DNA of 64,000 nucleotides from positions 1 through 64,000 of the forward strand of contig NZ_JAMFTH010000004.1 in NCBI RefSeq assembly GCF_024195295.1, read 5' to 3'. The notes beneath the pieces were generated by a model that was not told the origin of the DNA, searched no databases, and worked only from the letters and a program-made list of their open reading frames with translations. The stretch is from Gilvimarinus xylanilyticus. GTDB taxonomy: Bacteria > Pseudomonadota > Gammaproteobacteria > Pseudomonadales > Cellvibrionaceae. Within the stretch, counting starts at the first letter, position 1, and each line of letters opens with the position of its first letter. The position numbers and the translations under genes were made by a program. Positions 339 through 58,286 of the stretch are shown piece by piece.

Positions 339-384
339 TGTGCGGGGTACCATAGTTTGGCCAAAATGGCCAAACTATGGTCAC
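339..384. repeat. Transposon left end: terminal repeat and two TnsB-type sites
   Basis: TGTGCGGGGTACC opens the element. The 13-mer GGCCAAACTATGG appears inverted at 350-362 and direct at 368-380, separated by AAAAT, so the two sites also form a strong hairpin. The same 13-mer occurs twice as direct repeats in the right end. In Tn7-like elements such repeats are TnsB binding sites. The hairpin may also replace the lost tRNA terminator. Confidence 0.85.
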
Positions 385-411
385 CTAGCATACCTGAAGT
401 GGCCATTTTTT

Positions 412-455
412 AGCCCCTCCCCTCTCTCGGCAATAGCAGAGGGGGATTAGGGGCT
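412..455. repeat. Hairpin AGCCCCT/AGGGGCT in the left end region
   Basis: AGCCCCT-CCCCTCT (412-425) pairs with AGAGGGG...AGGGGCT (438-455), with a small internal bulge. It could shield the restriction operon from tRNA read-through, but there is no T-run, so its use as a terminator is uncertain. The rest of 384-687 holds the leader of hsdR with an AAGGAG ribosome site at 675-680. Confidence 0.5.
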
Positions 456-687
456 CACCTATAGATTACTCTCCCTATCGAACTGCCTCCCAATGTGGCT
501 CACCCTCCTCACCTCAGAAACCCTATTCGTGGTATGCTTTGGCGCATAATCTTTTAATGTAGAGCTGTCTGATAACGACATCTAACAGCGCTAAATATGA
601 TGGTCGAGTCGAGATTACTCTCAGGCGATACCCGCACCTTGCAACACACCAACATTTCGCCCAGTAGCAAGACCAAGGAGTGGCCTG

Positions 688-3018
688 ATGGCATCTGAAG
701 CGGATACCCGCGCAAATTATATCGATCCTGCCTTACGAGCAGCAGACTGGCAGCCGAGCAATATCATTCGGGAGCATTACTTCACCGACGGTAGAAAGAT
801 GGCCGGAGGAGTGCGTGGGCGACGTTGCTTTGTGGATTACTTGCTTCACAAAGACAATCGGTCTCTGGCTGTTGTAGAAGCCAAAAAAGAATCCGAGCAT
901 CCAACCAAAGGCCTGCAACAGGCCATCGACTATGCGAATAAGCTTCGTGTTCGTTTCGTCTATTCCAGTAACGGCAAACAAACCTACGAATTCGATCTGG
1001 AAACAGGCAAAGGCGACTACATTGAGTTCTACCCAACGCCTGCTGAACTGGAAAGGCGTTATGCCGGAGAAACCACAGATTTAAGTCAGGAATTAAGAAA
1101 CATCCCATTCCATTTAGAAGGGGCCATGCAGCCACGTTATTATCAAGAGCTGGCAGTTCATGCGGCTACCGATGCCATTGGCCAAGGCAAATCCCGCATT
1201 TTGCTCACCCTGGCCACCGGTACCGGTAAAACCTTCATCGCCTTTCAAATTGTTCATAAGGTATTTCAGGCACGCTGGAACCGAGATAATCCCGGTTCAC
1301 GCAGGCCACGCGTTCTGTTTCTGGCTGACCGTAATATCCTGGCCGACCAAGCCATTAACACCTTCAACCCCTATGAAAAAGACCTAATCAAAATCAACGG
1401 GGAAGAAGTGCGTAAACGCAATGGTGTGGTGCCAACCAACGCACACATATTTTTCGCGATCTATCAGGCAATTGCGGAACGAGCCAATTCCGAAAAAGAA
1501 AGTATTGATGGCTACTACAAAGCTTATCCCAAAGACTTCTTTGATCTGGTGTTGATTGATGAGTGTCACCGAGGTGCTGCTAATGACACAGGCTCTTGGC
1601 GAGCCATACTCGATCACTTCAATAGCGCGGTGCATCTGGGCTTAACCGCCACACCGAAGCGCACAGACAACGTAGACACCTATGAATACTTTGGTCAGCC
1701 AGCCTATGTCTATTCACTTAAAGACGGTATCAACGACGGTTTCTTAACCCCGTACCGGATAAAGCGCGTTAGAGCCAATCTGGATGAACTGGTGCTCACC
1801 AAAGATGACTTGATCGTCGAAGGTGAATCTGGCCAAGATTTATATCAGGTCGAAGACTACGACCGCAAAATTATTGTAGATGAACGTACAGAACTCGTCG
1901 CCAAAGCCATCTTACAAAACATCAACCCGCTGGAAAAAACCATTGTCTTTTGTGAGAACCAAAACCATGCGCTGACCATGCGCGACATGATCAACAAATA
2001 CAAAGCCGTAAAAGACCCACATTACTGTGTACGAGTGACCAGCGACGAAGGCAAGGTCGGCCGCGAGTTGCTGGAAAAATTCCAGGACAACGACAAAGAC
2101 ATCCCAACCATTATTACCTCATCACAAATGCTCACGACCGGTGTTGATGCCCGCAATGTCCGCAATGTGGTGCTGGATCGAACCATCGGCTCGATGGTGG
2201 AGTTCAAACAGATTGTGGGGCGAGGTACCCGAGTTTTTGATGGTAAGGACTACTTCACCATCGTGGATTTTCGGGGGGCGACCAACAACTTTTATGATGA
2301 GGAATGGGATGGCGAGCCCGAAGCTCCGGGGCCAGGCGGAACCCGAGAACCAACACCGCCACCCTACACGCCAGAGCCGCCCGAAGGCGGCGACGGGCCG
2401 GAACCCGAGCCAGGAGAGCCGCGCCCGAGGTTAAAAGTAAAACTTGGTAAGCACCGCGAGCTCAAGGTCATCGATATTGAAACCCGTTATATCGACGAAA
2501 ATGGCAAGCCTCTGACTATTCAGGAGTTTGTTGAACGGTTAATTCAACAACTGCCAGGCTTGTTCACAAGCGTTGATGAGCTTCGGGATATCTGGTCAGA
2601 CCCAGACCTTCGCGAACAACTCTTGGCCAAACTGGTACAGGCTGGCTTTGATAAAGTACAGCTCTCGACACTGCGCCGGATGTTCGAAGCCGACGACTGC
2701 GACATGTTCGATTTGCTGGCGTTTTTAGCCTTTGAGCAACCCATGGCTACCCGTAAATCACGAGCGGCAGCAGTGCGAGCGAATAACGCCTTCTTTGACC
2801 AATACCAACAGGAAAAGGCCAAGCAATTCCTGCATTTTGTCTTAAATCGCTACGAGCAAACGGGCGTTACTGAATTGGCGCGTGAGCGCCTGCCAGCGTT
2901 GATTGAGCTATCCGGCCTAGGAACTACCAAAGATGCCTCCATGGCTTTTGGTGGAAAACCTGCGCAATTACTCGCTGCCTTCAAACAACTACAACACCAG
3001 CTGTACCACGTGAGTTAA
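688..3018 (+). CDS. hsdR: Type I restriction enzyme, R subunit (EcoEI-like)
   Basis: This is the motor and nuclease subunit of a type I restriction enzyme. An N-terminal PD-(D/E)xK nuclease is visible as D50 and E64-x-K66. A superfamily 2 helicase follows, with Walker A ATGTGKT at 176-182, DECH at 291-294, LTATP, and a QIVGRGTR motif VI. A Pro/Gly-rich linker (about 548-585) precedes a C-terminal domain of the EcoEI-R type that contacts the methylase. Length 776 aa is normal for this subfamily. The ATG at 688 has AAGGAG 7 bp upstream. It heads a five-gene operon with gaps of only 2-10 bp. No lesion is seen, so cleavage activity is expected. Confidence 0.95.
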   Translation: MASEADTRANYIDPALRAADWQPSNIIREHYFTDGRKMAGGVRGRRCFVDYLLHKDNRSLAVVEAKKESEHPTKGLQQAIDYANKLRVRFVYSSNGKQTYEFDLETGKGDYIEFYPTPAELERRYAGETTDLSQELRNIPFHLEGAMQPRYYQELAVHAATDAIGQGKSRILLTLATGTGKTFIAFQIVHKVFQARWNRDNPGSRRPRVLFLADRNILADQAINTFNPYEKDLIKINGEEVRKRNGVVPTNAHIFFAIYQAIAERANSEKESIDGYYKAYPKDFFDLVLIDECHRGAANDTGSWRAILDHFNSAVHLGLTATPKRTDNVDTYEYFGQPAYVYSLKDGINDGFLTPYRIKRVRANLDELVLTKDDLIVEGESGQDLYQVEDYDRKIIVDERTELVAKAILQNINPLEKTIVFCENQNHALTMRDMINKYKAVKDPHYCVRVTSDEGKVGRELLEKFQDNDKDIPTIITSSQMLTTGVDARNVRNVVLDRTIGSMVEFKQIVGRGTRVFDGKDYFTIVDFRGATNNFYDEEWDGEPEAPGPGGTREPTPPPYTPEPPEGGDGPEPEPGEPRPRLKVKLGKHRELKVIDIETRYIDENGKPLTIQEFVERLIQQLPGLFTSVDELRDIWSDPDLREQLLAKLVQAGFDKVQLSTLRRMFEADDCDMFDLLAFLAFEQPMATRKSRAAAVRANNAFFDQYQQEKAKQFLHFVLNRYEQTGVTELARERLPALIELSGLGTTKDASMAFGGKPAQLLAAFKQLQHQLYHVS

Positions 3019-3021
3019 CCA

Positions 3022-4815
3022 ATGGAACTGAACTTAGCCCCTAACCCTTTGCATAGACAAGTACAGACCTTGCGAATTGATAAGGTCGCTACGCTGATCG
3101 GCGAGAACGGCTCAGGAAAATCTAGTATTTTGCAGTCGGTGTTTGAACAACGATTAGCCGGGCGGGATCATGAAAACCTTAAGGTCGTGTGCTTCTCATC
3201 TGGTCAGAACGAGAACTACTCAGAAAAATTCAGTGCTTATTTGAAAAGAGAAAGGCAAGCCGGGCGCGGCCTCAATCTCGACTGTTTCTATTTCGACAAA
3301 ACCTGGTCGAAGCTGCTGATCTTTTTAGCCACAGCCATTAAACGCAACGGCAAAGTTCGGTCTTTCCTGGTGGAACAGGAATACGTCAATGAGTCGCAGC
3401 CAGATAAAGACGATTTGAGTACAACCTTCAAATGCGCCTTTAAAGTGGATAGAAACTACATTGCTCGAGTGCAAGATGCACTCAAGCGAGAAGAACGCGG
3501 CGAGGCCGATACTCTGCGTGCGACGCCATATTTTCGCTCACTGGAAAGCTTTATTACCAACCTGATATCCCGTGAGTATGAGTTTGAAGAGCCCCTGCGA
3601 AAGCGAACCGTCGATCTCACTGCCAATGGTTTAATTAGGGTTTCTTTCGACTACGCCACGCTACTACAGGCGGGTGATGATGAAGCTCAAGCCGGCGAGC
3701 CCAACGCCCAAGCCATGGCTACTCACTGGGACCCGGAAGTGGCCTTTTTCACTCAGGCCGCTGACAACAACTACTTTATCGATAAGCCACGCAGTCAACT
3801 CGTATTCAAACACAATATAGAGCTGGACCAGCTTAGCGATGGGGAATACCAGCTCCTGTTCTTGTATGCGCTAATCGATCTGTTCGACTCCGAGAAAACC
3901 CTGTTCCTATTCGATGAGGCCGACTCGCATCTTCATTATAAAAACGTCGAAAAGCTATGGGGGCTTCTCCACAGCATTCAAGGCCACGCCATCACCACTA
4001 CACACTTACTCGATTCCATTTCAGCTAAAGAGAATCGTATTGAGCATCTAAAGGTGGTGGAAAAAGGCAGGATCAACGAAGACAACAAAATCAAACAATT
4101 GATCAATCGCCTGAGTGTGCTGTCACGCGCGAAATCCGTGGAATTTGAAGTTTGTGGCAAACTGCTAAACATCGCCTTGCTAGATGATTACAACGATTGG
4201 ATTATTTTTACCAAACTCGTATCAAAAAAAGGTTTAGACGCTGGTCGATTGACTCAAGTTCATGCTCTAAAGAAAACTTCCAGCTGTGCAAGTGACGCAG
4301 AACGTTTAGGGCAGGCAAAAGTAGATTGGGTGAAAGGTCTTGGAGCGTCCGAATCACAGCTGAATACTACGAGAATATTTCTGATTTGCGACAGAGATGA
4401 GGCAAATCCAAACTGGCAACAAAATGGTGTTGAGTTAGCGGGAAAGCCTTACAAAGATCTACTGAAAACGATTAGATGGCCAAATGGTTTCAATACTAAA
4501 ACCTACCTGCTCGCCTGGAAGCGGCGTGAAATAAAGAACTATTTACTCTCATACACGGCCCTCGAACACTTCGGTGTACTCGAACATATCAATGGGGCTA
4601 ATATCGCTGCTATAGATCACCTCAAAGCAGGTGATTCAGGTGACAACAATTCAATTCGTCGCGTTAACGCGAAAGCCACTATTGATCCATTGATTAACTC
4701 CGATGGCGAAGGCTTAGACCCAGGAAAACTCCAAGCCTATATCGACCTGATGCCGCCCGAAGAAATCAGCGAAGACATCACCAATATGTACAATTTTATT
4801 ATCGGAAAACTCTGA
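3022..4815 (+). CDS. ABC/OLD-like ATPase inside the type I R-M operon
   Basis: The 597-aa protein has Walker A GENGSGKS (27-34), an ABC-type signature LSDGEYQ (271-277) and Walker B LFLFDEAD (294-301), with DSHLH following as a D-loop. This is the SMC/Rad50/OLD arrangement. The part after residue ~390 contains an acidic CDRDEAN stretch that could be part of a TOPRIM-like fold, as in OLD nucleases, but I cannot confirm the other TOPRIM residues. It starts 3 bp after hsdR and ends 2 bp before hsdM, so it is co-expressed with the R-M subunits. Standard type I systems do not need it; an accessory defence role is inferred from position only. Confidence 0.8.
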   Translation: MELNLAPNPLHRQVQTLRIDKVATLIGENGSGKSSILQSVFEQRLAGRDHENLKVVCFSSGQNENYSEKFSAYLKRERQAGRGLNLDCFYFDKTWSKLLIFLATAIKRNGKVRSFLVEQEYVNESQPDKDDLSTTFKCAFKVDRNYIARVQDALKREERGEADTLRATPYFRSLESFITNLISREYEFEEPLRKRTVDLTANGLIRVSFDYATLLQAGDDEAQAGEPNAQAMATHWDPEVAFFTQAADNNYFIDKPRSQLVFKHNIELDQLSDGEYQLLFLYALIDLFDSEKTLFLFDEADSHLHYKNVEKLWGLLHSIQGHAITTTHLLDSISAKENRIEHLKVVEKGRINEDNKIKQLINRLSVLSRAKSVEFEVCGKLLNIALLDDYNDWIIFTKLVSKKGLDAGRLTQVHALKKTSSCASDAERLGQAKVDWVKGLGASESQLNTTRIFLICDRDEANPNWQQNGVELAGKPYKDLLKTIRWPNGFNTKTYLLAWKRREIKNYLLSYTALEHFGVLEHINGANIAAIDHLKAGDSGDNNSIRRVNAKATIDPLINSDGEGLDPGKLQAYIDLMPPEEISEDITNMYNFIIGKL

Positions 4816-4817
4816 GC

Positions 4818-6314
4818 ATGTCACTACAACAGAAAATAGATCGCATTACCGACATTCTGCGCCGCGACGATGGCATCAGCGGTGCCATGCATTACACGGA
4901 GCAGACATCTTGGGTTTTGTTCCTGAAGTTTCTCGATGATTATGAATTGGGAAAAGAAGACGATGCGGTATTATCCGGCAAGGACTATCAACCGGTACTC
5001 GATGACGAGCATCGCTGGGCATACTGGGCCTGCCCTAAGACAACTGATGGTAAATTGGACCTGGCACGTGCAAAAACCGGGGATGACCTCACCGATTACG
5101 TCAATAACCAGCTATTCCCATACTTGAAAAGCTTTGCAAATGCTGCCGCAACGGGTGCAGATCCAAAATCTTTTACCTACAAAATTGGCGCTATTTTTCA
5201 GTACTTGGACAACAAGGTCGCCTCTGGCCATACCCTGCGTGAAGTATTAGATATTGCCGATACTTTGAATTTTCAATCCGATGACGAGATGTTTGAGCTG
5301 TCTCAGGTATATGAAAGTTTACTGCAAAACATGGGGGATGCTGGCGGCTACGCTGGTGAGTATTACACTCCGCGCCCTGTTGTCCGAGCGATCGTTAAAG
5401 CTATAAATCCACAACCACTTGAAAAGATCTATGACGCAGCGGCGGGTTCTTGTGGGTTCTTAGTTGAAGCATTTGAATACAACAAACCCACACCTTTCAA
5501 AAAAAGAACCGGGAGGGAACTAACTAGCGAAGAATACGATTTCCAGCGCGTCGACGCTTATTGGGGGTTTGAAAAAACCTCACTCGCCTACGTGATGGGG
5601 ATGATGAACATGATTTTGCATGGCATCGAATCCCCCAACCTGTTTCGTGGTAATACCCTGACTCAAAATATCCGCGACATTCAAGAAAAAGACCGTTACA
5701 ACGTTATACTGGCGAACCCACCGTTTGGCGGCAAAGAAAAGGCGCAAATTCAGCAAAACTTCCCTATCCAGAGTAATGCGACTGAATTGCTGTTTTTGCA
5801 GCACTTTATGAAAACCCTTAAAAGTTCAGGCAAAGCAGCTATCGTATTGCCAGAAGGCGTGCTCTTCCAAACCAACAGCGCCTTTAAGCAGGTGAAACAA
5901 GAGTTGCTTGAAAACTTTAACCTACACACCATTTTAAGCCTGCCAGCAGGGGTGTTTTTGCCGTATTCAGGCGTTAAAACCAACGTACTATTTTTTGAGC
6001 GCAGCGGCGGCACAAGCGATGTGTGGTACTACGAATGCGAGCCCGAGCAAAAACTCACCAAAAACAAACCGATCACCGACGAACACCTAAAAGAGTTTGT
6101 TGAGCTCTATAATAGCCGCGAAACCACCGAACGCTCCTGGACGGTATCGGCCAGAAAGCTTGCAGAAGACTATGATCTAGCCGCCAAAAACCCCGCCAAG
6201 CAAAAAGATACCGAGCATTTAGCGCCAAGTGACATCCTCAAGGAAATTCGCACCAAGGAAAAGCTGGTGTCTGGGCTGCTGGATGAAATTGAAAACCTGT
6301 TGGCGGAGCATTAA
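4818..6314 (+). CDS. hsdM: Type I modification methylase, M subunit
   Basis: This N6-adenine methyltransferase of a type I R-M complex is 498 aa, the normal length. An N-terminal helical HsdM_N domain (about 1-150) precedes the Rossmann methylase. AdoMet motif I is DAAAGSCGFL at 206-215, where most relatives have DPAxGxGGFL, so the Pro-to-Ala and Gly-to-Cys changes are unusual. Catalytic motif IV NPPF is at 300-303. It lies 2 bp after the ATPase gene and 2 bp before hsdS. With the S subunit it should protect the host recognition site. The altered motif I does not remove a known catalytic residue, so activity is still likely. Confidence 0.95.
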   Translation: MSLQQKIDRITDILRRDDGISGAMHYTEQTSWVLFLKFLDDYELGKEDDAVLSGKDYQPVLDDEHRWAYWACPKTTDGKLDLARAKTGDDLTDYVNNQLFPYLKSFANAAATGADPKSFTYKIGAIFQYLDNKVASGHTLREVLDIADTLNFQSDDEMFELSQVYESLLQNMGDAGGYAGEYYTPRPVVRAIVKAINPQPLEKIYDAAAGSCGFLVEAFEYNKPTPFKKRTGRELTSEEYDFQRVDAYWGFEKTSLAYVMGMMNMILHGIESPNLFRGNTLTQNIRDIQEKDRYNVILANPPFGGKEKAQIQQNFPIQSNATELLFLQHFMKTLKSSGKAAIVLPEGVLFQTNSAFKQVKQELLENFNLHTILSLPAGVFLPYSGVKTNVLFFERSGGTSDVWYYECEPEQKLTKNKPITDEHLKEFVELYNSRETTERSWTVSARKLAEDYDLAAKNPAKQKDTEHLAPSDILKEIRTKEKLVSGLLDEIENLLAEH

Positions 6315-6316
6315 GA

Positions 6317-7564
6317 ATGAAGCAGGTTCAATACACGCTTCCGAATACTTGGACTTGGAAAACTCTCGATGACGTATCTGAAAAGATTACTGACGGAACT
6401 CATCACAGCCCCAAGGTGCAACACTTGGAATGGGCGCCAGGTCGATTCAAATACATTACATCAAAGAATATCAAAAATAATGGCATGAAACTGGATGACA
6501 TTTCCTACATAGACCAAAATATTCACGATGAAATTTACGCCAGGTGTCCTCCAGAGTTTGAAGATCAGCTTTTAACAAAAGACGGCGCGATGACTGGTAC
6601 GTGCTGCCTAAATGAGTTGAATGAACCTTTTTCATTGCTGTCGAGTGTTGCTCTGATCAAGCAAAAGCGCTCAATAATACAGCCTAAATACTTGAACTAT
6701 TACCTGCAATCTCATGTGGGTCAGAACTTCCTTCTCGGAGATATTTCTGGAGCAGCAATAACTCGAACAAATATTAAGAAGCTCAAGAGCACGCCAGTTC
6801 CATTAGCGCCGTTTTCAGAACAAAAACGCATCGTCGAAAAACTCGATGCACTGCTCTCCCGCATCGACACCGTCATCGAGCATTTTCAGGAAAGCGTCAA
6901 ATTGTCTGATGCCTTGTATGCAAGCTCTCTTGATCAGGTGTTTGAGAAAGTCTATTCAGATTATTCAACGAAACCTTTATCGGTCCTAGCGAGTAAAATT
7001 GGGAGCGGGGCAACACCAAAAGGTGGACAAAAAGCCTACAAGAAATCAGGGATATCATTGATACGCAGCCTTAATGTTTATGACTCGGAATTTAAGCTAG
7101 AGGGACTAGCTTTCATAGATGATGACCAAGCTGTAAAGTTAAGCAATGTAGTGGTCGAAGAAGGTGACGTTCTATTGAACATTACCGGTGCCTCAATCGC
7201 TAGGTGCTGTGTTGCTCCAGTAGATTTTCTGCCTGCTCGCGTGAACCAACATGTATGCATCATTCGTCCGAATGAAGAGTTAAATTCTACATACCTAAAT
7301 TATTTGTTGATTAGCCCTAAGTTTAAGGCTGCTTTATTGTTTCAAGGCGCGGGCGGAGCAACGCGCCAAGCTTTAACAAAAGTAATGGTTTCTAACTTAG
7401 ATATACCGTTGCCACCGCTAAAGACGCAGACCGAGCTAGTAGGAAAAGTGAATCTGTTAAGCCAGAAGAATCGAGCTTTAAAGGAATCTGTCAACTCAAA
7501 GATATCTGATTTAATCACCTTAAAAACATCAATTCTCGATTCCGCCTTTAAAGGCGAGCTCTGA
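6317..7564 (+). CDS. hsdS: Type I specificity subunit
   Basis: A 415-aa DNA-recognition subunit with two target-recognition domains in tandem. The first half starts with a typical TW-x-TLDDVSEKITDGTHH region. The central conserved helix follows the stretch PLAPFSEQKRIVEKLDALLS (about 155-175). The second half (about 205-415) repeats the plan with IPLPPLKTQTELV and a final helix. The two TRDs read the two halves of a bipartite target that cannot be predicted here. The central and C-terminal helices set the spacer and bind two HsdM. It is directly coupled to hsdM. Local base use in the two TRDs is more AT-rich than in hsdM, as is common for hsdS. Confidence 0.93.
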   Translation: MKQVQYTLPNTWTWKTLDDVSEKITDGTHHSPKVQHLEWAPGRFKYITSKNIKNNGMKLDDISYIDQNIHDEIYARCPPEFEDQLLTKDGAMTGTCCLNELNEPFSLLSSVALIKQKRSIIQPKYLNYYLQSHVGQNFLLGDISGAAITRTNIKKLKSTPVPLAPFSEQKRIVEKLDALLSRIDTVIEHFQESVKLSDALYASSLDQVFEKVYSDYSTKPLSVLASKIGSGATPKGGQKAYKKSGISLIRSLNVYDSEFKLEGLAFIDDDQAVKLSNVVVEEGDVLLNITGASIARCCVAPVDFLPARVNQHVCIIRPNEELNSTYLNYLLISPKFKAALLFQGAGGATRQALTKVMVSNLDIPLPPLKTQTELVGKVNLLSQKNRALKESVNSKISDLITLKTSILDSAFKGEL

Positions 7565-7574: not shown

Positions 7575-9593
7575 ATGAGCTTACAAACCAATCTCAAAGG
7601 CCGTTTACGCAATACTTCTTTGCCCAAAAGCCACGGCTTAATGCCGGTATTTGAGGCGGTGGTAAACTCCATTCACTCCATCGAAGAAAAAGGAAACGCT
7701 GATAATGGCAAGATTGTTCTTCGCATTAATCGAGCTACCCAACGCGGATTGGACTTAGACAAACAATCTTTACCCCCTATCATTGGCTTCACAATAGCCG
7801 ACAATGGCTGTGGTTTTGATGAGACCAATTTTAAGTCCTTTGAAACCCTCGACTCCGACCATAAAATTGCCAAAGGCTGCCGGGGTGTTGGCCGCTTGAT
7901 GTGGCTGAAGGTGTTTGATCTGGTCGAAGTGGAAAGCCACTTTCTCGATGTTGATGGTGAACTAAAAAAACGCGCATTCCGTTTTGACGACAAGTTGGGC
8001 GTTCATGGTGAAAAGGTTGAGACAGCAACTGCTCAGCAAACAGGAACCCAAATTAAACTTGTTGATTTTGATGAGAACTTCCGTAAACATGCGCCGACAA
8101 AGAGCGAATCCATAGCCAATCAGCTACTGGAGCATGTACTTTGGTATTTTGTGCGAACTCAGGATGCTCCAAAAATACTTGTAGAAGATGCCGGAGAGAG
8201 CGTTGACTTGGATGTACTCTATGATCAACACATGCATGCAAGCGCTTACCACGAGAAGATTAATATTCGCGACTATTCTTTCGACCTTACTCACATTAAG
8301 TTTCGTGCCTCAGTAAATAAAAAGCATCATTTAGCTCTCTGTGCGGCTAACCGATTGGTTAAAGAAGAGTCTATCCAAGGTAAGCTCCCTGGCCTGTACG
8401 GTAAAATTTCAGACGCGTCCGGCGAGTTTACCTACACCTGCTATGTGTCTTCTGATTACCTAAACGAGCACGTGCGAAGCGAACGTACTTCCTTTGATAT
8501 TGCCGAAGATGTAGAGGACATGTTAAATGAAGTCAGCTTTAAAGATATTCGCGATGCGGTATTAGATCGCACAAGGGAATATCTACAAGATGTACTGGCA
8601 GAAAATGTCCATGCCGGTCGCAACCGTGTCGATGATTTTATTAACAATCACGCGCCGCGCTACCGCCCCATTGCCAATTACGTTTCGGAAGAGCTACTGA
8701 TTGTTGACCCAGAAAAGTCGGACAAAGATCTGGAGCTACACCTTCATGCACAGTGGTATGAGGTGGAGCGACAATTGGTCAGCGAAGGCCATGACATCAT
8801 GCAGCCCCAGAATGATGAGCATGTAGAAGAATACAAAGAACGGCTGAGTGAGTATCTTCGCAAAGCTGAAGACCTTAAAAAATCAGACCTAGCTAATTAC
8901 GTTTCGCATCGCAAGGTCATTATTGACCTGTTACAGAGATCTATCGAGCAATTAGAGGACGGTAAGTACGCCCGTGAAGATATGATCCATGAGTTAATCA
9001 TGCCCATGCGTAAAGATTCCGGTGAGGTGTTCTTAGATTCCTGCAACCTTTGGCTGATTGATGAGCGGATGGCATTTCACAACTATTTGGCCTCAGACAA
9101 AACGCTGAACGCCATGCCTATTACCGGCAACGAGTCCACCAAAGAGCCCGATTTACTCAGCCTCAGAGTATTTGATAATCCACTACTGGTTAATGATCAA
9201 ACCAGTTTTCCCCTCGCCGCTATCACCGTTGTCGAAATCAAACGTCCAATGCGAAACGATATGCGAGAAGGCGAAGATAAAGACCCGATTGATCAAGCAC
9301 TCAGCTATCTAGAGCGAATTCGAGAGGGGAAGGTCTCTACAAAATCCGGGCGTCCGATCCCAGGCAATAATGACATCCCGGGCTATTGCTATGTGCTCTG
9401 TGACTTGACTGAATCCATGCATCGACGTTGCCGCCGCGCCAATCTGCGTATCACATCTGACGGCATGGGTTATTTCGGTTACAACGAGCCATCTCATGCC
9501 TATATCGAAGTAATTAGCTTTGATCAGTTAGTGAAAGCGGCAAAAGAGCGGAACCGAGCATTCTTTGACAAGCTTGGCTTGCCTTCTGTTTAG
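7575..9593 (+). CDS. GHKL ATPase with nuclease-like C-terminus, R-M associated
   Basis: The 672-aa protein has a GHKL (Hsp90/MutL/histidine-kinase type) ATPase at the N-terminus. The N-box is EAVVNSIHSIEE (N31), the G1 box DNGCGFD starts at 76, and the G2 box GCRGVGRLMW is at 101-110. There is no kinase dimerisation region or receiver domain. Near residue 551 a VVEIKRP motif follows an acidic strand and resembles the E-x-K part of a PD-(D/E)xK nuclease. A charged, probably helical region (about 390-470) links the parts. A strong GAGGAAAG ribosome site precedes the ATG, 10 bp after hsdS. An ATP-gated nuclease acting with the R-M system is my inference. Confidence 0.75.
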   Translation: MSLQTNLKGRLRNTSLPKSHGLMPVFEAVVNSIHSIEEKGNADNGKIVLRINRATQRGLDLDKQSLPPIIGFTIADNGCGFDETNFKSFETLDSDHKIAKGCRGVGRLMWLKVFDLVEVESHFLDVDGELKKRAFRFDDKLGVHGEKVETATAQQTGTQIKLVDFDENFRKHAPTKSESIANQLLEHVLWYFVRTQDAPKILVEDAGESVDLDVLYDQHMHASAYHEKINIRDYSFDLTHIKFRASVNKKHHLALCAANRLVKEESIQGKLPGLYGKISDASGEFTYTCYVSSDYLNEHVRSERTSFDIAEDVEDMLNEVSFKDIRDAVLDRTREYLQDVLAENVHAGRNRVDDFINNHAPRYRPIANYVSEELLIVDPEKSDKDLELHLHAQWYEVERQLVSEGHDIMQPQNDEHVEEYKERLSEYLRKAEDLKKSDLANYVSHRKVIIDLLQRSIEQLEDGKYAREDMIHELIMPMRKDSGEVFLDSCNLWLIDERMAFHNYLASDKTLNAMPITGNESTKEPDLLSLRVFDNPLLVNDQTSFPLAAITVVEIKRPMRNDMREGEDKDPIDQALSYLERIREGKVSTKSGRPIPGNNDIPGYCYVLCDLTESMHRRCRRANLRITSDGMGYFGYNEPSHAYIEVISFDQLVKAAKERNRAFFDKLGLPSV

Positions 9594-9673: not shown

Positions 9674-10978
9674 CTAGTTACATGCCACCTGCAATACCCT
9701 ATAAGCTTTTTGAATCGCATCTTTCAGCATCCACTTAGGCAACCCTGTCTCCTCCCGAATAACCCTATATGCCTGCTTCCTGGAGACCATCTGCTCATCA
9801 CAACCTGCAAAATACTCAAGTGCCTTAGACTGAGCTAAACGCCTCTTAGCGAGCTTCTGCTGCTCGATGTAGGCCTGATGTCGGCTCACCAACTGCTTAA
9901 CCTGCTCTGGAAAGCGATACTCCAGGTAGCCCACTGATACATCCAGTTCAGCCGCTATGGCTTTAAGCGAAAGCGGCTCATCTTTTGATTTGAGCAGGCG
10001 AGCCAGCCTTTTGAGGATCGCGCGATGATCACGCTTAAACTTAGAAGAGATTTCCATAAAGCTAGGCGGAAAAGGACAAAAATGGCCGAAATCCAATGCC
10101 TGAGTGACATGGGCAGCATTCCCGCTAATTAGGTCATAAAGTGAGATTCCTAGGCCAAAAGCCACTTTTCTCGCATCATTCAAGCAAAGCCTTCGCTGAG
10201 AGTGAATAACCGATAACAAGTGGTCTCTGGATAACAATTGATAAAACTCATCTTCCCGCCCAGATTTCCAGTAGTAGTCAAAGATTTGATCTAAAGATTG
10301 CCATATTCCTGAAGAGGTTAACGAGTCTGGGCCATAGGTGGCAATATCGCCAAAAAGCTCAACAACATCTCGCCCAATGTCTTGCCAGCTGGACACTATG
10401 TCCTTTTTCTTAAGGCGGGCCTTACGTTTTGAGAGCGTTACTCCGCATTCCTGACAACGCCCGAGTGGGCGCTTTTTAATATAACTCGCCTGATCGCAGC
10501 CACAATGGTCACATTCAGTCAAAAATGGCGTGCGATGAACAGGGCACGCCAAAAGTGCTCTTAGCTGCCAAATTAATTTGAAGTAGCAATCCTGACCAAA
10601 AGCTTCCATTTCGGCAAAACACTCTGGACACCAGCGGAATCCATGATGCAGCTCTCCTCTGGAGAGCGTAAGCGGGCCGTTAAACACTGAAACCGTCGCC
10701 CCCTCTAAGGGCTGCCTAGTCATATAACTCAGCATTAACTGAACGCCCTTAGCCAATTTGTTACTTCTCAATAGACTGTGCACACCGATGTAGCTAGGCA
10801 GAAATGGCAATGCCGATTGAATCTCTTCATGGCCTTCGATCTGCCTATAGCAGTATCTAAGAAGCTCTCCCACATAAACTCCGTGTTTATACGAAAGACG
10901 GTGTAAATATGAAGGCAAGGACTCAACTTCGGAAGTGCCGAGTGCTCGAAGAGCCACAGGAAAGAGGAAGTCATTCAT
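9674..10978 (-). CDS. tniQ: TniQ/TnsD-like target-site selector
   Basis: TniQ/TnsD proteins bind the attachment site and recruit TnsC. The start is placed at the ATG at 10978, which overlaps the tnsC stop (GCATGAATGA); a longer frame to 11152 would only add residues read out of frame through tnsC. The protein is then 434 aa, and begins with the family hallmark ESLPSYLHRLS. Zinc-binding pairs are clear: WCPEC, ACPVH, CDHCG and CQECG. The C-terminal half holds predicted helix-turn-helix stretches (for example SLKAIAAELDVSVGYLEYRF), expected for a DNA-reading TnsD. Because the element sits 22 bp past a tRNA-CAU gene, this protein probably recognises that tRNA gene. Confidence 0.9.
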   Translation of the reverse strand: MNDFLFPVALRALGTSEVESLPSYLHRLSYKHGVYVGELLRYCYRQIEGHEEIQSALPFLPSYIGVHSLLRSNKLAKGVQLMLSYMTRQPLEGATVSVFNGPLTLSRGELHHGFRWCPECFAEMEAFGQDCYFKLIWQLRALLACPVHRTPFLTECDHCGCDQASYIKKRPLGRCQECGVTLSKRKARLKKKDIVSSWQDIGRDVVELFGDIATYGPDSLTSSGIWQSLDQIFDYYWKSGREDEFYQLLSRDHLLSVIHSQRRLCLNDARKVAFGLGISLYDLISGNAAHVTQALDFGHFCPFPPSFMEISSKFKRDHRAILKRLARLLKSKDEPLSLKAIAAELDVSVGYLEYRFPEQVKQLVSRHQAYIEQQKLAKRRLAQSKALEYFAGCDEQMVSRKQAYRVIREETGLPKWMLKDAIQKAYRVLQVACN

Positions 10979-14448: not shown

Positions 14449-14528
14449 AGATCCCCCTAATCCGTCCAAGTAACCGCAAATTTGAGGGCGAGCGGGTACC
14501 TCGAACGGCAGATTCGTGAATGAAGGTC

Positions 14529-14557
14529 TTGACAGGGCTTTTAGGGGAAGGGATACT
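14529..14557 (+). promoter_or_regulatory. Strong sigma-70 promoter overlapping an inverted repeat
   Basis: TTGACA at 14529-14534, a 17-bp spacer, and GATACT at 14552-14557 (4 of 6 to TATAAT). The spacer and -10 lie in the left arm of an inverted repeat: TTTAGGGGAAGGGA at 14540-14553 and TCCCTTCCCTAAA at 14579-14591. The repeat could be an operator or fold in the RNA. It points away from tnsAB. Confidence 0.6.
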
Positions 14558-14562
14558 TGACC

Positions 14563-17755: not shown

Positions 17756-17881
17756 CTCCATAAATGTATTTCGCGATCCGGCGTCGGAATCATTGAGAGA
17801 TTTTTGTGCATGACATTGCATCTGGTTTTGTCTCGATTAAGGCTGCATGCTGAATTGGAAAAATATGGCAGGTAAAGACAA

Positions 17882-20971: not shown

Positions 20972-20980
20972 AGTGACCAA

Positions 20981-33766: not shown

Positions 33767-33781
33767 ACCGAACATTACAAA

Positions 33782-48077: not shown

Positions 48078-51000
48078 TTAAAGCGTTTTCACAAATGCCT
48101 GAACCGCCGACTGCTCAGAATCGCTGAGGGCATTGTAGGCATCGGTAACCGACTGAGCATCACCTCCGTGACGTCTGATAGCGTCGGCAACACTGGCAGA
48201 GGCACCATCGTGCATATACAGCATGTCGTGCCCATTGCGCTCTAACAAGTGAATATTCTGACCAATACCCCACAGAGGTGCAGTACGGAATTCGCCCTCC
48301 CCCAAATCCCACGTTTTCATGTCGGTATAAGGACGAATAGTCAGGTTGCGCAAATGCGTTGGTGCATCAGAGCGGGTTTTTTGCACCGGAGTATGGCAGC
48401 TGGCACAGCCAATTTCGGTAAACGCCACTTCACCTTGACTCACCGCTGGGTCACTGTAAGTGCCAGGGTCACGCGCAGGCACAGTTAACACCTCAACATA
48501 GGTGGTTAACAGCTCCAGCAAGCGGGGCGGCATTTCAGCCGGATCCACACCATGGTCAACAACCAGCGCCGATTTAACCTGATCGGCCACGGTAGGCTCT
48601 GAACCCTCCCAGTTAAAACCGGCTTCACGCCCTTCAATCGCTTCCAGCAGTTTCACGCCGTACACTGGTGGCGGTAAACGCATGCCTTTACCCGGTACGT
48701 TAACAGGCTCTGTACCTCGCCCATCACGGAAGTGACAGTTACCACAGGTGTCACGACCAATTTGTACATCCGGATCGTTAAACGTGCTAGAGCCTAGCTT
48801 GTTGGGATCCACACCGTGGAACAGATGATGCCCCAGGATAAAATCATCCACCATGTCTTCTTTGTGCAAGGTCACCATGGGCTGAGTGAAAATCGCATTG
48901 TGCTCTAGATCGATGTAAGCACCCGAGTCAGAGAACACTTGACTGGTACCGGCTTTACCGGCTGGGTTTAAGCGCGGATCACCGTACTTACCACACCAAC
49001 CACAGCCCACTACATAGTGGGAGAAGTCATTGTAAGTTTGTGCTCCGGTGTTACCGGCAATAGCGGTTACTTCGAAGCTGATCACCTGACCGTAGCTGTA
49101 AGCCGAGTCAAAACCGGGATTTTGAGTCAGGGCAAAAAACTGCTGGCCATTTGGCCCACCGGCGGTGTTGCGCATTGATTCATTACGCAAAATACTACCG
49201 TTGATACCAAAACCTAAGTGCACATCACCGGGGCTGTCTTCGGCCCAGATAGTGTAGCGATCGAGGTTGCGTAAACGATCATTGTTGTGGTGCGCATCCA
49301 ATACCGCAGCGGTAGTACCGTCTTGTGTAATGGGGTGACGAAAGCGCATCCAGTTAGAAGAGCCATCCACAAACGGCTCGTAGTTATGCGGATTAACACG
49401 CGCGCCCTTGGTGGTAAACAGACCGGTCCAGATCCATTGCGTTGCCGGATTATTGTTTAGCGCGTTAGCGTGCAGGTACCGGAAGAAATAGTTGTAATCA
49501 CCAGTACAAGGGATGGTCGCTGTACCATCGGTTACCGCTACTTTCTTAAAGGTTAAGTCACCGTCGTCCGAGCAGTGCATCTCAAGCCCCGAATCACCGG
49601 CCTGTTTGACAATATATGGCCCCCAACGCCAAGTTAACTGGTCGCCGTCAATATCAAACGCAAAGCCGTGGCTAGTAGGTGCATGACCGATTTCAGGCGT
49701 GGCCAGCGCATACACAGGATTTGCCCGCGGTGGAGGTCCCACTTCACCGTCGGTGAGTGAATTGCTCGTCCAGTCGAGGTGGGCAAAGGGTGAGTCTGGA
49801 TCGACATTATCACCCGGATCACCGTTGCCGCCGTCGTTACCGCTATCATTTCCGCCGTCGGCACCATTGGTAGTGTAGTCATAACGGGGGAACTGGTCAG
49901 CGCCCACACCAGGCACTTTCAACTGTGCGGTAAAGCTACCACCAGGCAAATTTGCGAAGGTGTGCTCGTAACGATCGCCGTTTTGGCTCGCGGTATAACA
50001 GTCGGCTTCCAGATCACGACACAAATAGTAAGTGCCGGAGTCGGGCCAACCTGGCTGCACGGTAAACCACAGAGTGCTGCCGCTAACGCCAAACGGCTCA
50101 TCGCCGTTGCCTCCGTTATCTCCGGGATTGCCATCATCAGCGGCCGCCACTTGTACACTCACCTCATCGCGCACACCGGTCAGGGTATGATCGGCTTCGG
50201 CCAGTTCAACCGCGAGGGTATGTGTGCCCACAGCCAAACCATCGATCACCACGTCGTCGCTGCTGTATAACGGCCCCTGATCCTCACCATTAACAAAGTA
50301 GTGTACGTGACCATCGTTTTGCGCCAGCGGCCAGTTATTAACCACAAAGCCCAACGTAATGCTCTCACCCTCAGTAAAGCTGGCACCATTGGCCGGTGAG
50401 GTGATACCCACTGTGCCTTGTGGGGCTGGTTGATCACTCACCTGAACCTGCACGGAATCAGACGCCACAGCGCCGTCGTTATCCGTGGCCTCGACACGAA
50501 ATTGCCAAGTACCCACTTGATCGGCGGTAATACTAAAACCGTAGGGCGCACCGTTTTTTTTTCTCACTAAGGTTTCAGACATACCTGGGGCGGTCGCGTA
50601 CAAGGTAACGCTGGCGACACTGCCGTCGCTGTCCGAGGCCGTTGCCGTAAGGTTTACGGTGTCCCCTAAAGTTGTAGCAGCCGGTTGGTTCAACGTCACC
50701 GTGGGTGCCTGATTCTCGACAGGGTTTGCACTGCCCCCCTGAAGAGTAAAGTCCAGCAAATCAACATTCATAGCCGCATCGCCATTTTGGTAGCGCACTT
50801 CTACACTGGCACCTTGAGGCACCTGAACATCTACATCAACGGTGTTGTAGCTACCGACCCAAGAGCCGGTGCTGGTAAAGGGCACAACCATATCACTGCC
50901 GTTTACCCGCAAGGTGATACGCCCTGATACTTCTGACGCGTAAGTAATGCTCACGGTATCGGCCTGCGGCGCGCTATCAATGCGAAAGCCTGCGCCATTG

Positions 51001-53099
51001 CTGCTGATGTAAGCCACACCCTCGCCACCACTGGCCGCTGTATCCGGGTAAAGCTGCGCGCCGCCAAACACGGTGGCGGTTTCGGCCTCCAGTGTCAGGC
51101 TGGTGGGGTCACCACTGCTGCTGTTATCTTGCACCACGGTTTTGCTGGTGGTGGTCTCTGCTGTGGCGCCTTGATCGTCCACGGCCACGGCACGGAACTG
51201 GTAGTTGCCTGCCGTATTAACGACAACGTCGAAGGTGTGAATATTGCCAGAAACCTGATCAACCAATGTTTCGCTACCGCCTGGGGCAGTCATGTACAAG
51301 GTTACAGATTCTACGCTGCCATCACTGTCGTTAGCGTTCACAGCTACTGAAATAACGCCACCTTCGGTAACCAGGCCTGAGTTTGTGCTGGCCGAAATCG
51401 TTGGTGCAAAATTGGGCTCATCTACCGGGTCACCACTGCCCTTGGTAAAAGTCGCCTGATCCTGCACGGTGTACTGACCGCTTTCGTTATCCTGAACTTT
51501 AAATTCAATGGCGTAACTTTGACCCAAGGTGCCATTGAAGTTACGGGTAAACAAACCGTCGGCACGGGTCGCAGACAAACAGTAAGCGTCTAAACACAGA
51601 TAAGCGAAATTGCCTTCCCAGTCCGGATTGTCCTGATGAAATACTTGCAAGGTGGAGTCGTCGATATAGCGAATTCCAAACTCGGCATTCGGCGCTGGAT
51701 CCGGATCCTCACCGCCGTCAGCCAAGATATTTTTATAGATTATTGTTTCGTCAGTGCGGCCATCGTTATCGGTGGCCACTGCGCGCAAGGCGTAATTACC
51801 TGCCACTGACGTATTAACGGTGAAGGTATCCGCGGTACCTTGTGAGGTCCCGACCAGAACTTCGCTGCTGTTGGGCGCGGTAACATACAAACTGATGCTG
51901 GTTACCGAACCATCGGCGTCGCTGGCGCTTACGTCAACCGTAAAGCTCTCGCCGGCCACCACTTCTGAATTTTGCGCCACTAAGTTGACGCTAGGGCTTT
52001 GCGGATCAACGGAGCCCGGATCACCAAAATTAAGTTCACTGAACAGGTTGACCCCGGCACGAATAAAATCGGTGCCGCCGGTAGCGTTTTGCCAACGGTT
52101 TAAAATAGTGCTGTTGGCCTGAACCCGGCTATCGCCCCAGTAACCCTCTGGGCCATAGACGCCGTCGTTAGGATTCCAGCGTGGCTGCGCGTCCCAGTTG
52201 GCGTTGATATAAGTGATGGCGCGCAGAACATCTTTGCTGCCGCTTGAGTATTCCGCAATAAAATCAAAGTACGGCTGATACCACTCGTTCCACACTTGAT
52301 CGGCAGTTTTGTTAACCTGGTTATTGCCAAAAGCCGCGTCGGTGGAATAGGTAAGCGCTCCGGTTTTATAGCGCTGTGGTGTGGATTCATTGATAAAGAG
52401 AGGCTTGTTGTGGGCAACAGCAAAGTCTGCCACCTTGCGCACTTCAGTCCAGTTACAATCCTGTGGCGCAAAATAGGAGATACCCACCCAGTCGACCACA
52501 TCATCGCCGGGGTACCACTCATCGGGGTTAATAGGCACTGGACAGTAGGTGGCGGTTTGCCAAACCAAGGCGATACGATCGTCATAGCCTAACTGCTCAA
52601 TACGATTATGCACATAAGCAAAAGTAGACTTTACCGCTGAGGGGTTGTGATTATTCCAGGGCCCATCAACCTCATAAGCCCACCGTAAGTACACGGGGCG
52701 GTTGTAGCCACCCAAAGTATTTAACAGCGTATCGATATTCGCGTTGTAATTACCGGCTGCAACCTGATCAATCACGCCGTTCATAGAGACTCCCACCACC
52801 AGCGCCCGATCTGGATAAGTGGCGGCCAGCTCGGCCACATTGTTACGTCCTGCACCGGCATCGGCGCTATTAGTCAAACCGTCCAGGGTTGCAATTCCCA
52901 CATAATTAGTGACACCTGCGGGCTGAGTGCTTACCGATGAAACATACTCACCAATGCTTTCGATATCCTGCCCTACAGATAGCATGACTCCATCATCTGG
53001 AACCAAGGTACCACTGACCGCGTATGCCTGTGAGGCTGCAAATGTTGCAATACCCAACGTAAGGCTATGGCGACGAAACTCTTTCCAATAGCTACTCAT
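48078..53099 (-). CDS. GH26 beta-1,3-xylanase fused to CBMs and di-heme oxidoreductase
   Basis: A 1673-aa secreted protein with signal peptide to about residue 27. Residues 30-345 resemble GH26 beta-1,3-xylanases: LRWAYEVDGPW holds acid/base E143, FINESTPQ holds nucleophile E238, and ISYFAPQDC is typical. The 95-residue spacing matches the marine Vibrio enzyme (E138/E234). Next come Ig-like domains (366-460, 563-655, 796-888, 892-985), module X (472-552 and 1001-1078) and a CBM35/6-like domain (668-787). Gly/Asp-rich linkers lead to a shared unnamed domain (1131-1360). A DHOR-like domain (1400-1673) ends it, with CGNCH (H1456) and CASCH (H1569). I know of no GH26-heme fusion. It should cut algal beta-1,3-xylan while doing heme redox chemistry on the same substrate. 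Confidence 0.85.
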   Translation of the reverse strand: MSSYWKEFRRHSLTLGIATFAASQAYAVSGTLVPDDGVMLSVGQDIESIGEYVSSVSTQPAGVTNYVGIATLDGLTNSADAGAGRNNVAELAATYPDRALVVGVSMNGVIDQVAAGNYNANIDTLLNTLGGYNRPVYLRWAYEVDGPWNNHNPSAVKSTFAYVHNRIEQLGYDDRIALVWQTATYCPVPINPDEWYPGDDVVDWVGISYFAPQDCNWTEVRKVADFAVAHNKPLFINESTPQRYKTGALTYSTDAAFGNNQVNKTADQVWNEWYQPYFDFIAEYSSGSKDVLRAITYINANWDAQPRWNPNDGVYGPEGYWGDSRVQANSTILNRWQNATGGTDFIRAGVNLFSELNFGDPGSVDPQSPSVNLVAQNSEVVAGESFTVDVSASDADGSVTSISLYVTAPNSSEVLVGTSQGTADTFTVNTSVAGNYALRAVATDNDGRTDETIIYKNILADGGEDPDPAPNAEFGIRYIDDSTLQVFHQDNPDWEGNFAYLCLDAYCLSATRADGLFTRNFNGTLGQSYAIEFKVQDNESGQYTVQDQATFTKGSGDPVDEPNFAPTISASTNSGLVTEGGVISVAVNANDSDGSVESVTLYMTAPGGSETLVDQVSGNIHTFDVVVNTAGNYQFRAVAVDDQGATAETTTSKTVVQDNSSSGDPTSLTLEAETATVFGGAQLYPDTAASGGEGVAYISSNGAGFRIDSAPQADTVSITYASEVSGRITLRVNGSDMVVPFTSTGSWVGSYNTVDVDVQVPQGASVEVRYQNGDAAMNVDLLDFTLQGGSANPVENQAPTVTLNQPAATTLGDTVNLTATASDSDGSVASVTLYATAPGMSETLVRKKNGAPYGFSITADQVGTWQFRVEATDNDGAVASDSVQVQVSDQPAPQGTVGITSPANGASFTEGESITLGFVVNNWPLAQNDGHVHYFVNGEDQGPLYSSDDVVIDGLAVGTHTLAVELAEADHTLTGVRDEVSVQVAAADDGNPGDNGGNGDEPFGVSGSTLWFTVQPGWPDSGTYYLCRDLEADCYTASQNGDRYEHTFANLPGGSFTAQLKVPGVGADQFPRYDYTTNGADGGNDSGNDGGNGDPGDNVDPDSPFAHLDWTSNSLTDGEVGPPPRANPVYALATPEIGHAPTSHGFAFDIDGDQLTWRWGPYIVKQAGDSGLEMHCSDDGDLTFKKVAVTDGTATIPCTGDYNYFFRYLHANALNNNPATQWIWTGLFTTKGARVNPHNYEPFVDGSSNWMRFRHPITQDGTTAAVLDAHHNNDRLRNLDRYTIWAEDSPGDVHLGFGINGSILRNESMRNTAGGPNGQQFFALTQNPGFDSAYSYGQVISFEVTAIAGNTGAQTYNDFSHYVVGCGWCGKYGDPRLNPAGKAGTSQVFSDSGAYIDLEHNAIFTQPMVTLHKEDMVDDFILGHHLFHGVDPNKLGSSTFNDPDVQIGRDTCGNCHFRDGRGTEPVNVPGKGMRLPPPVYGVKLLEAIEGREAGFNWEGSEPTVADQVKSALVVDHGVDPAEMPPRLLELLTTYVEVLTVPARDPGTYSDPAVSQGEVAFTEIGCASCHTPVQKTRSDAPTHLRNLTIRPYTDMKTWDLGEGEFRTAPLWGIGQNIHLLERNGHDMLYMHDGASASVADAIRRHGGDAQSVTDAYNALSDSEQSAVQAFVKTL

Positions 53100-56646: not shown

Positions 56647-56713
56647 TTCACAACAACACGGGCCACCCCAGGGCAAGGCCCAATCTATTAACCACAGAGC
56701 CAAAAGGTTTTTT

Positions 56714-58045
56714 ATGAGCATTACATTAGGTGATAAAGAGTATTTCCCCGGAGTCGAAAAAATTCAGTACGAGGGTGCCGAGTCCGATAATCCACTCGCC
56801 TTTAAATGGTACGACGAAAATAAAGTCGTCGCGGGAAAAACCATGAAGGAACACTTCAAGTTTGCGGTCTCCTACTGGCACACCTTCTGCGGCGCCGGTC
56901 ACGACCCTTTCGGTCCAGGGCCCTTCATATTTCCATGGAACGAAGGTAAAGATGCCGACACCCGCGCGCGCATGAAGCTGGACGCAGCTTTTGAATTTTT
57001 CACCAAATTAGGCACTCCCTACTACTGCTTCCACGATGTAGATGTGATTGAGGAAGGCAACTCCCGCAGCGAGACCAGCGCACGCTTAGCCAAATGGGTA
57101 GGCTGGGCCAAAGAGAAACAAAAAGAGTCTGGCGTTAAGCTTTTATGGGGTACATCAAACTTGTTCAGCAACCCACGCTTTATGAACGGTGCCTCCACCA
57201 ACCCAGACTTTAACGTGGTTGCCTACGCTGGTGCACAACTTAAAGACGCTATGGATGCCACCATCGAACTCGGCGGTGAAAACTACGTGTTCTGGGGCGG
57301 CAGAGAAGGTTACATGAGCCTGCTGAATAGCGATGTAAAGCGCGAACAGGAGCACCTAGCTCGTTTTCTAACGATCGCACGTGATTACGGACGCGCCAAT
57401 GGTTTTACAGGTAACTTCCTGATTGAGCCCAAACCAATGGAGCCGACCAAACACCAGTACGATTTCGACAGCGAAACCGTTATAGGCTTCTTACGTCATC
57501 ACGGCCTCGATAAAGACTTTAAGCTGAACATTGAAACCAACCACGCCACGCTGGCACAACATACCATGGACCACGAAATGCAAGTCGCCGCCAACGCCGG
57601 CATGCTGGGCTCCATCGATGCAAACCGCGGTGATTACCAGAACTCGTGGGACACGGATCAGTTCCCCTACAACATCAACGAAACCGTTGAGATGATGCTG
57701 GTGCTGCTGCGCCACGGCGGCTTCCAAGGCGGCGGTGTAAACTTCGATGCGAAACGTCGTCGCAACTCCACAGACATGAACGACACCTTCCACGGACACA
57801 TCGGCGGTATGGACGTATTCGCCCGCTCACTGCTGATTGCAGATGACCTGATCCAAAAGTCTCCGCTTGAGAAAATGCGGGCCGAGCGTTACGCCTCATT
57901 CGATAATGGTAACGGCGCCGATTTTGAACAGGGAAAACTAACTTTGGAGCAACTGGCTGACATTGGCAACAGTGTAGGTGAGCCTAATCAGACCAGTGGA
58001 CAGCAAGAGCTGTATGAAAACATCATTAATCGTTATGTACGCTAA
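56714..58045 (+). CDS. xylA: Xylose isomerase, class II
   Basis: A 443-aa metal-dependent isomerase turning D-xylose into D-xylulose. The length and N-terminal extension mark class II. Catalytic His107 and Asp110 are in CFHDVDV. The metal and substrate ligands are in [29 protein letters not shown] and [17 protein letters not shown]. It is the last gene before the right end of the transposon; its terminator is at 58074. It acts in the cytoplasm on xylose delivered by the MFS porter and GH43. Confidence 0.98.
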
Positions 58046-58073
58046 GCGGCTCTCGCGATAAGGCAACCACACC

Positions 58074-58104
58074 AAAGCGGTCTTTGCCGCGTAAAGACCG
58101 CTTT
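58074..58104 (+). terminator. Terminator of xylBA
   Basis: AAAGCGGTCTTT (58074-58085), loop GCCGCGT, AAAGACCGCTTT (58093-58104): perfect 12-bp stem 28 bp after the xylA stop. The T-run is short, but the stem carries its own Ts. Confidence 0.85.
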
Positions 58105-58238
58105 CGACACTAATCATCGCTTTGGCAAAAGCTAAGCCTCCTTCCTCGCCGCCATATGGGACTGCTGGCAAAATTAGCTCTCAAGCTGATCAGAAATCAC
58201 TCAACCCGCAGAAAAGCGTTAAAATACGATCTCAAAAT

Positions 58239-58286
58239 GGCCAAACTATGGTACCAACTGCTGGCCAAACTATGGGTACCCGCACA
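58239..58286. repeat. Transposon right end: two TnsB-type sites and terminal repeat
   Basis: GGCCAAACTATGG is present twice as direct repeats, at 58239-58251 and 58263-58275, and the element ends ...GGGTACCCGCACA at 58286. Reverse-complemented, the last 24 bases match the left end apart from one shifted base. Direct spacing is 24 bp. Confidence 0.85.

Follow-up and report, generated by a model that had tools for sequence, protein, structure and literature searches.

The window analysed here, that is the whole stretch of 64,000 bp, begins at base 1 of contig C8 in genome G000, that of Gilvimarinus xylanilyticus, a marine bacterium feeding on plant polymers; nothing is visible to the left of base 1. 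Positions 339–58286 are occupied by a 58 kb Tn7-like element, which stands behind a tRNA-Met gene and carries genes for the transposition proteins TnsAB, TnsC and TniQ. Of the 80 open reading frames (ORFs) of at least 90 amino acids in the window, 38 were scanned for domains with Pfam, and statements on the absence of a domain refer to these 38. The attachment gene, the ends and the core genes are as follows.

240–316, plus strand: tRNA gene, tRNA-Met with anticodon CAU (CAT), the attachment gene (ARAGORN; Rfam RF00005, 71.6 bits)
322–338, plus strand: left half of the tRNA terminator, with TTCA at its end (sequence; unsplit in G003)
339–381, no strand: left end, TGTGCGGGGT and a palindromic pair of TnsB-type sites (349–362 and 368–381; register 19) (sequence)
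9677–11152, minus strand: TniQ, predicted TnsD-like target selector (PF06527, 59.3 bits; profile and Foldseek to 8v32_J)
10974–12038, minus strand: TnsC ATPase (PF13401 and TniB above cut-off)
12025–14469, minus strand: fused TnsAB transposase (phmmer to 9bw1_M, 1.2e-55; 27–49% identity to clade members)
15293–15664, minus strand: Xre/MbcA/ParS-like ORF upstream of tnsAB (PF09722, 22.2 bits, below the cut-off of 24.5)
58238–58286, no strand: right end, a direct pair of TnsB-type sites at a spacing of 24 bp, followed by the terminal CCCGCACA (sequence)
58287–58306, plus strand: right half of the tRNA terminator, with TTCA at its start (sequence)
58310–58440, plus strand: degenerate tRNA-like copy that has a terminator of its own (sequence); G003 has a comparable copy behind its empty site

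Tn7 has TGT/ACA ends, repeated sites and a fixed insertion point a short distance from its target gene. In the window, the inverted termini of the original prediction are present as TGTGCGGG (339–346) and CCCGCACA (58279–58286), and when their terminal 25 bases are compared, 22 positions agree; elsewhere in the window, leaving the inner end sites aside, agreement is never better than 16. The two sites claimed for each end, predicted to be binding sites of TnsB type, are exact copies of GGCCAAACTATGG at 350–362 (minus), 368–380 (plus), 58239–58251 (plus) and 58263–58275 (plus); there are no others in the 3.93 Mb genome. The left-end pair face each other as a palindrome and the right-end pair are direct. 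When up to 3 mismatches are allowed, 24 sites are seen in the window where 18 are expected, so that only the exact sites are informative. No second, closer pair of ends was found around tnsAB.

The insertion is 22 bp behind tRNA-Met(CAU), which is intact, while its terminator is cut into the halves AAAGCCGCTATCTTTCA and TTCAGGTAGCGGCTTTTTTT with TTCA on both flanks, a split that had been claimed. Upstream of the tRNA, at the contig edge, there are GCAGAAC tandem repeats (1–76); similar repeats with Ns precede the tRNA in G006 (L067).

The core genes, too, are where they had been placed between the ends, at 9677–14469 on the minus strand. TnsA and TnsB share one open frame, in which Mu-transpos_C is above the Pfam cut-off and rve and TnsA_N are below theirs. 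D114, E127 and K129, which we take to be the nuclease residues, and D451, D521 and E557, presumably those of the DDE domain, are invariant between the window and the related element of G207. The TniQ family profile matches the TnsD chain 8v32_J at 3.3e-33 over 373 of 437 positions, the protein being longer than the TniQ core, and the same chain is the top Foldseek match (5.1e-16, with a TM score of only 0.47–0.50) for a structure model that was made from 7 sequences and has a mean pLDDT of 74.9. By profile and model, TniQ is thus predicted to be TnsD-like. These two chains, 8v32_J for TnsD and 9bw1_M for the integrase, are the closest solved chains to the window proteins, and presumably both come from the I-B2 element PmcCAST.

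Relatives at the tRNA locus and in the TnsAB clade

The tRNA is present in all 8 Gilvimarinus genomes compared, G000 included. In G003 the locus has no insert: window positions 337 and 58287 meet there at a 3 bp overlap, and 1–337, 58287–58371 and 59651–63975 align in order at 98.5%, 91.8% and 75.5% identity. No xylan genes, which in the window form most of the cargo, lie between the terminator halves of G003. This is the empty site that the original prediction had suggested looking for. Neither of the two findings named as refuting that prediction, xylan genes between the halves in a genome without the element or a closer end pair around tnsAB, was made.

The homologous ends, whose alignment had also been suggested, are found in G002, where the left end at the same locus has 89% identity to that of the window along 352 bp. 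This element (L066:1346–14486) is 13.1 kb long. Its right end is arranged like that of the window, and it sits in the third tRNA-like copy, 26 bp behind that copy. Its cargo comprises restriction-modification genes, an RT-like protein (RVT_1 below cut-off) and an IS481-like ORF, read from its translation. No tns gene is seen among its ORFs of at least 100 amino acids, and with the same ends as the window element it has probably been mobilised in trans.

In total, 4 of the 8 genomes have the end pattern at up to 3 mismatches; it is absent from G001, G003, G005 and G007, the last having Ns behind the tRNA. Of the two window-type right ends in G006, only one is at the tRNA locus. At that locus G004, too, has a window-type right end, with cargo read as CzcABC-like. 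The left end there, from L065:1555 onward, is a different one, TGTTAGGAGC, at the same terminator position, which is perhaps that of another element family using the site. In a collection of genome contigs, 14 stretches match the end pattern, three of which are from Gilvimarinus; with a pattern of this length about 20 matches would arise by chance. A search of this collection with TnsAB peptide patterns found no relative.

Behind the tRNA in G003, G005, G004, G002, G006 and the window there are between one and four extra copies of the tRNA 5' half in which the CAU region is replaced (read in L062, L064, L065, L066, L067 and at 58310–58440 of the window). Some copies keep the 3' half and the terminator, and G001 has the 3' part only. 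We read this row of tRNA-like copies as possible extra landing sites.

Beyond the genus, TnsAB relatives are present in 12 of 97 near genomes (E 0.001), 3 of 369 in the class (1e-20) and 11 of 390 in the order (1e-40), G000 being counted each time. The closest is in G546 (TnsAB 49%, TnsC 58%, TniQ 50% identity), followed by G486, G712, G612 with two loci (G612a and G612b), G207 and G716. In the TnsAB tree, which has a midpoint root and a long branch for G716, these seven and the window form a clade of 8 split from G006, G020, G029, G050, G080 and G690 with support of 100/99. A TniQ tree was set aside, as only 2 of its 10 inner branches were well supported.

Five of the 8 elements are directly behind a tRNA-Met(CAT) gene, at 22 bp in the window, 23 bp in G207 and 24 bp in each of G546, G486 and G612b, the distances assuming 10 bases from the end to the first TnsB-type site. 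The 19 bp palindromic register of the left end is present in 6 of the 8 (the window, G207, G716, both of two elements in G546, G486 and G612a), with 12 of 14 bases pairing in G612a and 11–14 of 14 in the others; the left end of G712 was not found. At the right end the sites are 24 bp apart in the window, G546, G486 and G712 and 23 bp apart in G207, these being the five elements examined. In the G207 element, a group I intron (Rfam RF00028, 58.2 bits) splits a tRNA-CAU gene beside tniQ (L100:6603–6943, minus strand).

Taken together, this would make the 58 kb element, with very high probability, a cut-and-paste transposon of Tn7 type that homes to tRNA-CAU by protein guidance, and it is probably functional. 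By analogy with the Tn7 family, TniQ would recognise the tRNA-CAU gene by its 3' part and load TnsC, and TnsAB, having nuclease and DDE domains in one protein, would pair the ends and insert them 22–24 bp behind the tRNA. The left end would face the tRNA, which is spared, the terminator being split here.

Several observations weigh against this reading. The element shows signs of having been rebuilt, and its mobility is deduced from sequence. Within the clade, G716 is inside comF (read from its translation), and no tRNA is found near the element in 60 kb of G712 or in the 18 kb contig of G612a. G612b lacks the register-19 palindrome (7 of 14 bases pair at 22), the G486 end reads TGG rather than TGT, and the G546 end has an alternative reading that extends 4 bases outward, to 20 bp from the tRNA. 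In G006 (C57:343032–355645, L097) a right end and upstream block of window type stand near a TnsAB of another clade, possibly through a swap of core genes between elements; a search of the 35 kb to the left of this right end gave no left end to match it. The flanking repeats also vary. Those of the window (TTCA) and G207 (AAAT) are exact at 4 bp and have one mismatch each as 5 bp, whereas a review gives a 5 bp repeat as characteristic of all Tn7 relatives (PMC11406308). That of G716 is 5 bp and exact (GCGGA), that of G002 is 8 bp, and none is clear in G546 and G612b. Two 4 bp cases would be too few to decide between the lengths. For G546, a repeat ATTT with a longer left end was considered and dropped, as there is no clear repeat with 10 bases before the first site.

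Elements of this kind are already known, since fused-TnsAB elements with a tRNA-homing TnsD are described as the stock of type I-B2 and I-D CRISPR-associated transposons (CASTs) (PMC11406308, PMC10293859). The window element shares with these the fused TnsAB, TnsC, a large TniQ/TnsD and insertion behind a tRNA gene. It differs in its palindromic left end, its 4 bp repeats, a putative antisense RNA gene and the absence of a Cas domain among the ORFs scanned. The same papers have CyCAST homing about 30–33 nt behind tRNA-Leu, where the window clade is 22–24 bp behind tRNA-CAU. With Tn7 itself, which is inserted by glmS and has TnsABCDE, it shares the TGT/ACA ends, repeated sites and fixed point near the target gene (PMC11406308); it differs in the tRNA target, the fused TnsAB and the lack of a TnsE domain among the 38 ORFs scanned. 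A tRNA-CAU-homing clade in which no Cas genes have been seen would be added to the branch thought to have given the I-B2 and I-D CASTs, and its clear ends offer a basis for building a protein-guided inserter.

Cargo and the origin of the xylan block

The remaining length of the element is taken up by cargo.

688–7564, plus strand: type I restriction-modification genes flanking an AAA ATPase (Pfam, PADLOC)
7575–9593, plus strand: ORF of unassigned function beside the restriction genes (no match in Pfam, PADLOC or NCBIfam)
16142–21755, no strand: NIF-type phosphatase, 5' nucleotidase-like gene, phosphoesterase, S24 peptidase and ImpB/MucB/SamB polymerase pair, small ORF (Pfam)
21530–21841, plus strand: sequence found near the right ends of relatives, here 36 kb from the right end (sequence comparison)
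22643–58111, no strand: 36 kb xylan/xylose block, probably captured (Pfam, NCBIfam; left limit from the G004 match, right limit from the G007 match)

The xylan block contains, in order, GH43, GH120, a sugar transporter, a TonB receptor, LacI, two fusions of CBM31 with dihaem oxidoreductase, an AraC-type regulator, a xylulokinase-like gene and xylose isomerase. The fusions (43937–47572 and 48081–53099) encode very large proteins with the dihaem domain at the end, and copies of the second are 92% identical in G004 and 95% in G007. A tryptophan-halogenase-like gene and an IS66 remnant at 28759–33874 have no match of more than 150 bp in the xylan loci of these two genomes.

In both G007 and G004 the xylan genes are on contigs other than that of the tRNA locus. 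Pieces of 23757–58111 are collinear with G007 contig C4 at 69–94% identity, the match ending just past the terminator of xylose isomerase and about 125 bp before the right-end sites, and pieces of 22643–54701 match G004 contig C594 at 71–88% with one rearrangement. No exact TnsB-type site or end is present around these blocks in 80 kb of G007 or in the 61 kb G004 contig; both have only scattered sites with 2 mismatches, and in G004 an element could extend past the contig. At the other limit of the block, 21530–21841 matches sequence 0.6–0.8 kb from the right end in G006 (81.5% over 205 bp) and sequence about 0.16–0.19 kb from the right ends in G006 and G002 (83% over 35 bp). That similar blocks are present elsewhere in two relatives, and that sequence normally near a right end is stranded at 21.5–21.8 kb, indicate that the 36 kb block is a later addition to an older, shorter element and is now inside its outer ends, whether by capture or by the fusion of two stacked elements. 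The original prediction that the whole 58 kb moves as a unit with a tRNA-CAU attachment site is supported, with a qualification: by its present ends the element is one unit, its history is composite, and movement of the whole would be expected from its structure.

The fusion would involve a tns element of about 22 kb and a second, xylan-carrying element at the same tRNA, joined by loss of the inner right and left ends. This is quite possible, if somewhat doubtful. The stranded sequence at 21.5–21.8 kb fits it, and stacking does occur, as there are head-to-tail elements 4 bp apart in both G546 and G612a, and the G004 element is flanked by halves of two different terminators. Against this, all sites between 21.8 and 58.2 kb have at least 3 mismatches, one insertion event suffices for the terminator halves and TTCA at the flanks, and plain capture of a chromosomal segment explains the data equally. 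The question concerns the origin of the element and not its kind. An element fused in this way might or might not still be mobile as a whole by its outer ends. That the region is instead an ordinary genomic island, placed by a tyrosine integrase with the tns genes as passengers, is very improbable, since beyond the tRNA site and the tRNA-like repeats behind it there is nothing in its favour that outweighs an insertion behind rather than within the tRNA 3' end, the lack of a tyrosine integrase domain among the 38 ORFs scanned, and TGT/ACA ends with repeated sites in a layout shared by clade members.

Tn7-like transposons with sugar-metabolism and defence cargo, inserted behind tRNAs, are described in PMC8649781. 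Compared with the elements described there, the window has a 36 kb polysaccharide utilisation block in a tRNA-CAU element. Such a cluster inside a site-specific transposon means that a bacterium could gain the use of xylan in one step and at a safe site.

A putative antisense RNA upstream of tnsAB

Between tnsAB and the Xre-like ORF there is one further candidate feature.

14529–14625, plus strand: putative antisense RNA gene, with TTGACA-N17-GATACT, two hairpins and a terminator (sequence conservation, folding, model search)

The predicted RNA is about 75 nt long, diverges from tnsA(B), to whose leader it is antisense, and is found beside both fused tnsAB and unfused tnsA genes. The 108 bp block in which it lies is 87% identical between the window and G006, in contrast to their TnsAB proteins, which are 27% identical over 297 residues. 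The same block is recognisable by eye upstream of tnsAB in G546, G486, G712, G612a and G612b. Nine blocks, including those of G029 and G050, were located with a promoter pattern (spacing 14–21), and a model was built from seven; among the fetched loci it scores G029 at 28 bits and G050 at 24 bits, with no match at E 0.1 in G207, G716, G080, G690 or the tnsAB locus of G020. The block was also considered as an inner transposon end and rejected, having no partner copy.

In all 14 aligned sequences the -35/-10 pair has a spacing of 17 and is on the strand leading away from tnsAB, which is only partly independent evidence because the pattern and the model were used to choose the sequences. The terminator hairpin folds in all 14 and the first hairpin is in place in 11. 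The folds are 3.1 to 7.0 standard deviations below shuffles in the 9 tested, a result that the terminator alone could yield. Among seven sequences, 91.9% of 136 cells pair (reached by 8 of 500 shuffles), three pairs are changed on both sides (11 of 500) and the covariation score is 0.217 (5 of 500), while further pair types number 11 (69 of 500). This gives modest covariation support to the predicted structure.

In 390 genomes the model has 44 matches, in 35 genomes. Twenty were checked at their loci, 5 from the building set and 15 new, and the remaining 24 include one more member of the building set. Seven of the 15 new matches, all of at least 44 bits, are just upstream of a TnsA-like frame (L144–L148, L150, L151); six of these frames were recognised by motif and one, cut by a contig end, was read by eye, and all four put to Pfam pass the TnsA cut-off. 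These frames end by themselves, being unfused. The other 8 new matches (36–46 bits) have no TnsA-like frame shown.

It is, in our estimate, an even question whether several kinds of Tn7-like transposons, with fused TnsAB and with unfused TnsA, share an antisense RNA of about 75 nt, not yet described, that restrains expression of the transposase. The conserved block may instead work at the DNA level, as an operator of the Xre-like regulator, or form a structure in the leader of the tnsAB mRNA. This is rather unlikely. It would account for the consensus fold also pairing across the -10 region and for the helix-turn-helix (HTH) genes upstream in some loci, and the promoter spacing had partly been built into the search. 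It sits less well with a consensus -35/-10 and a T-run that point in the same direction, away from tnsAB, and with pairing that favours the RNA strand (125 of 136 cells against 110 on the opposite strand, with 18 G-U pairs against 3).

The putative antisense RNA gene beside tnsA(B) is apparently new. It has no match in Rfam, a literature search found no description of such an RNA, and the available text of the review PMC11406308 has neither 'antisense' nor 'small RNA'. If real, it would be a control layer common to Tn7-like elements and could matter for their use as tools.

If the RNA acts on tnsAB, attenuation, transcriptional interference or decay of the leader would be more likely than a direct block of translation, since the RNA would leave the tnsAB start codon free. 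A role as a guide or in trans was considered and rejected, as 5 of 6 elements have no complementary or identical stretch of at least 11 bases outside their own locus and G486 has one of 12. In IS10, the small RNA-OUT is antisense to the transposase mRNA and comes from an opposed promoter. The predicted window RNA is placed differently, in the 5' leader region and clear of the start codon, and it recurs across Tn7-like elements.

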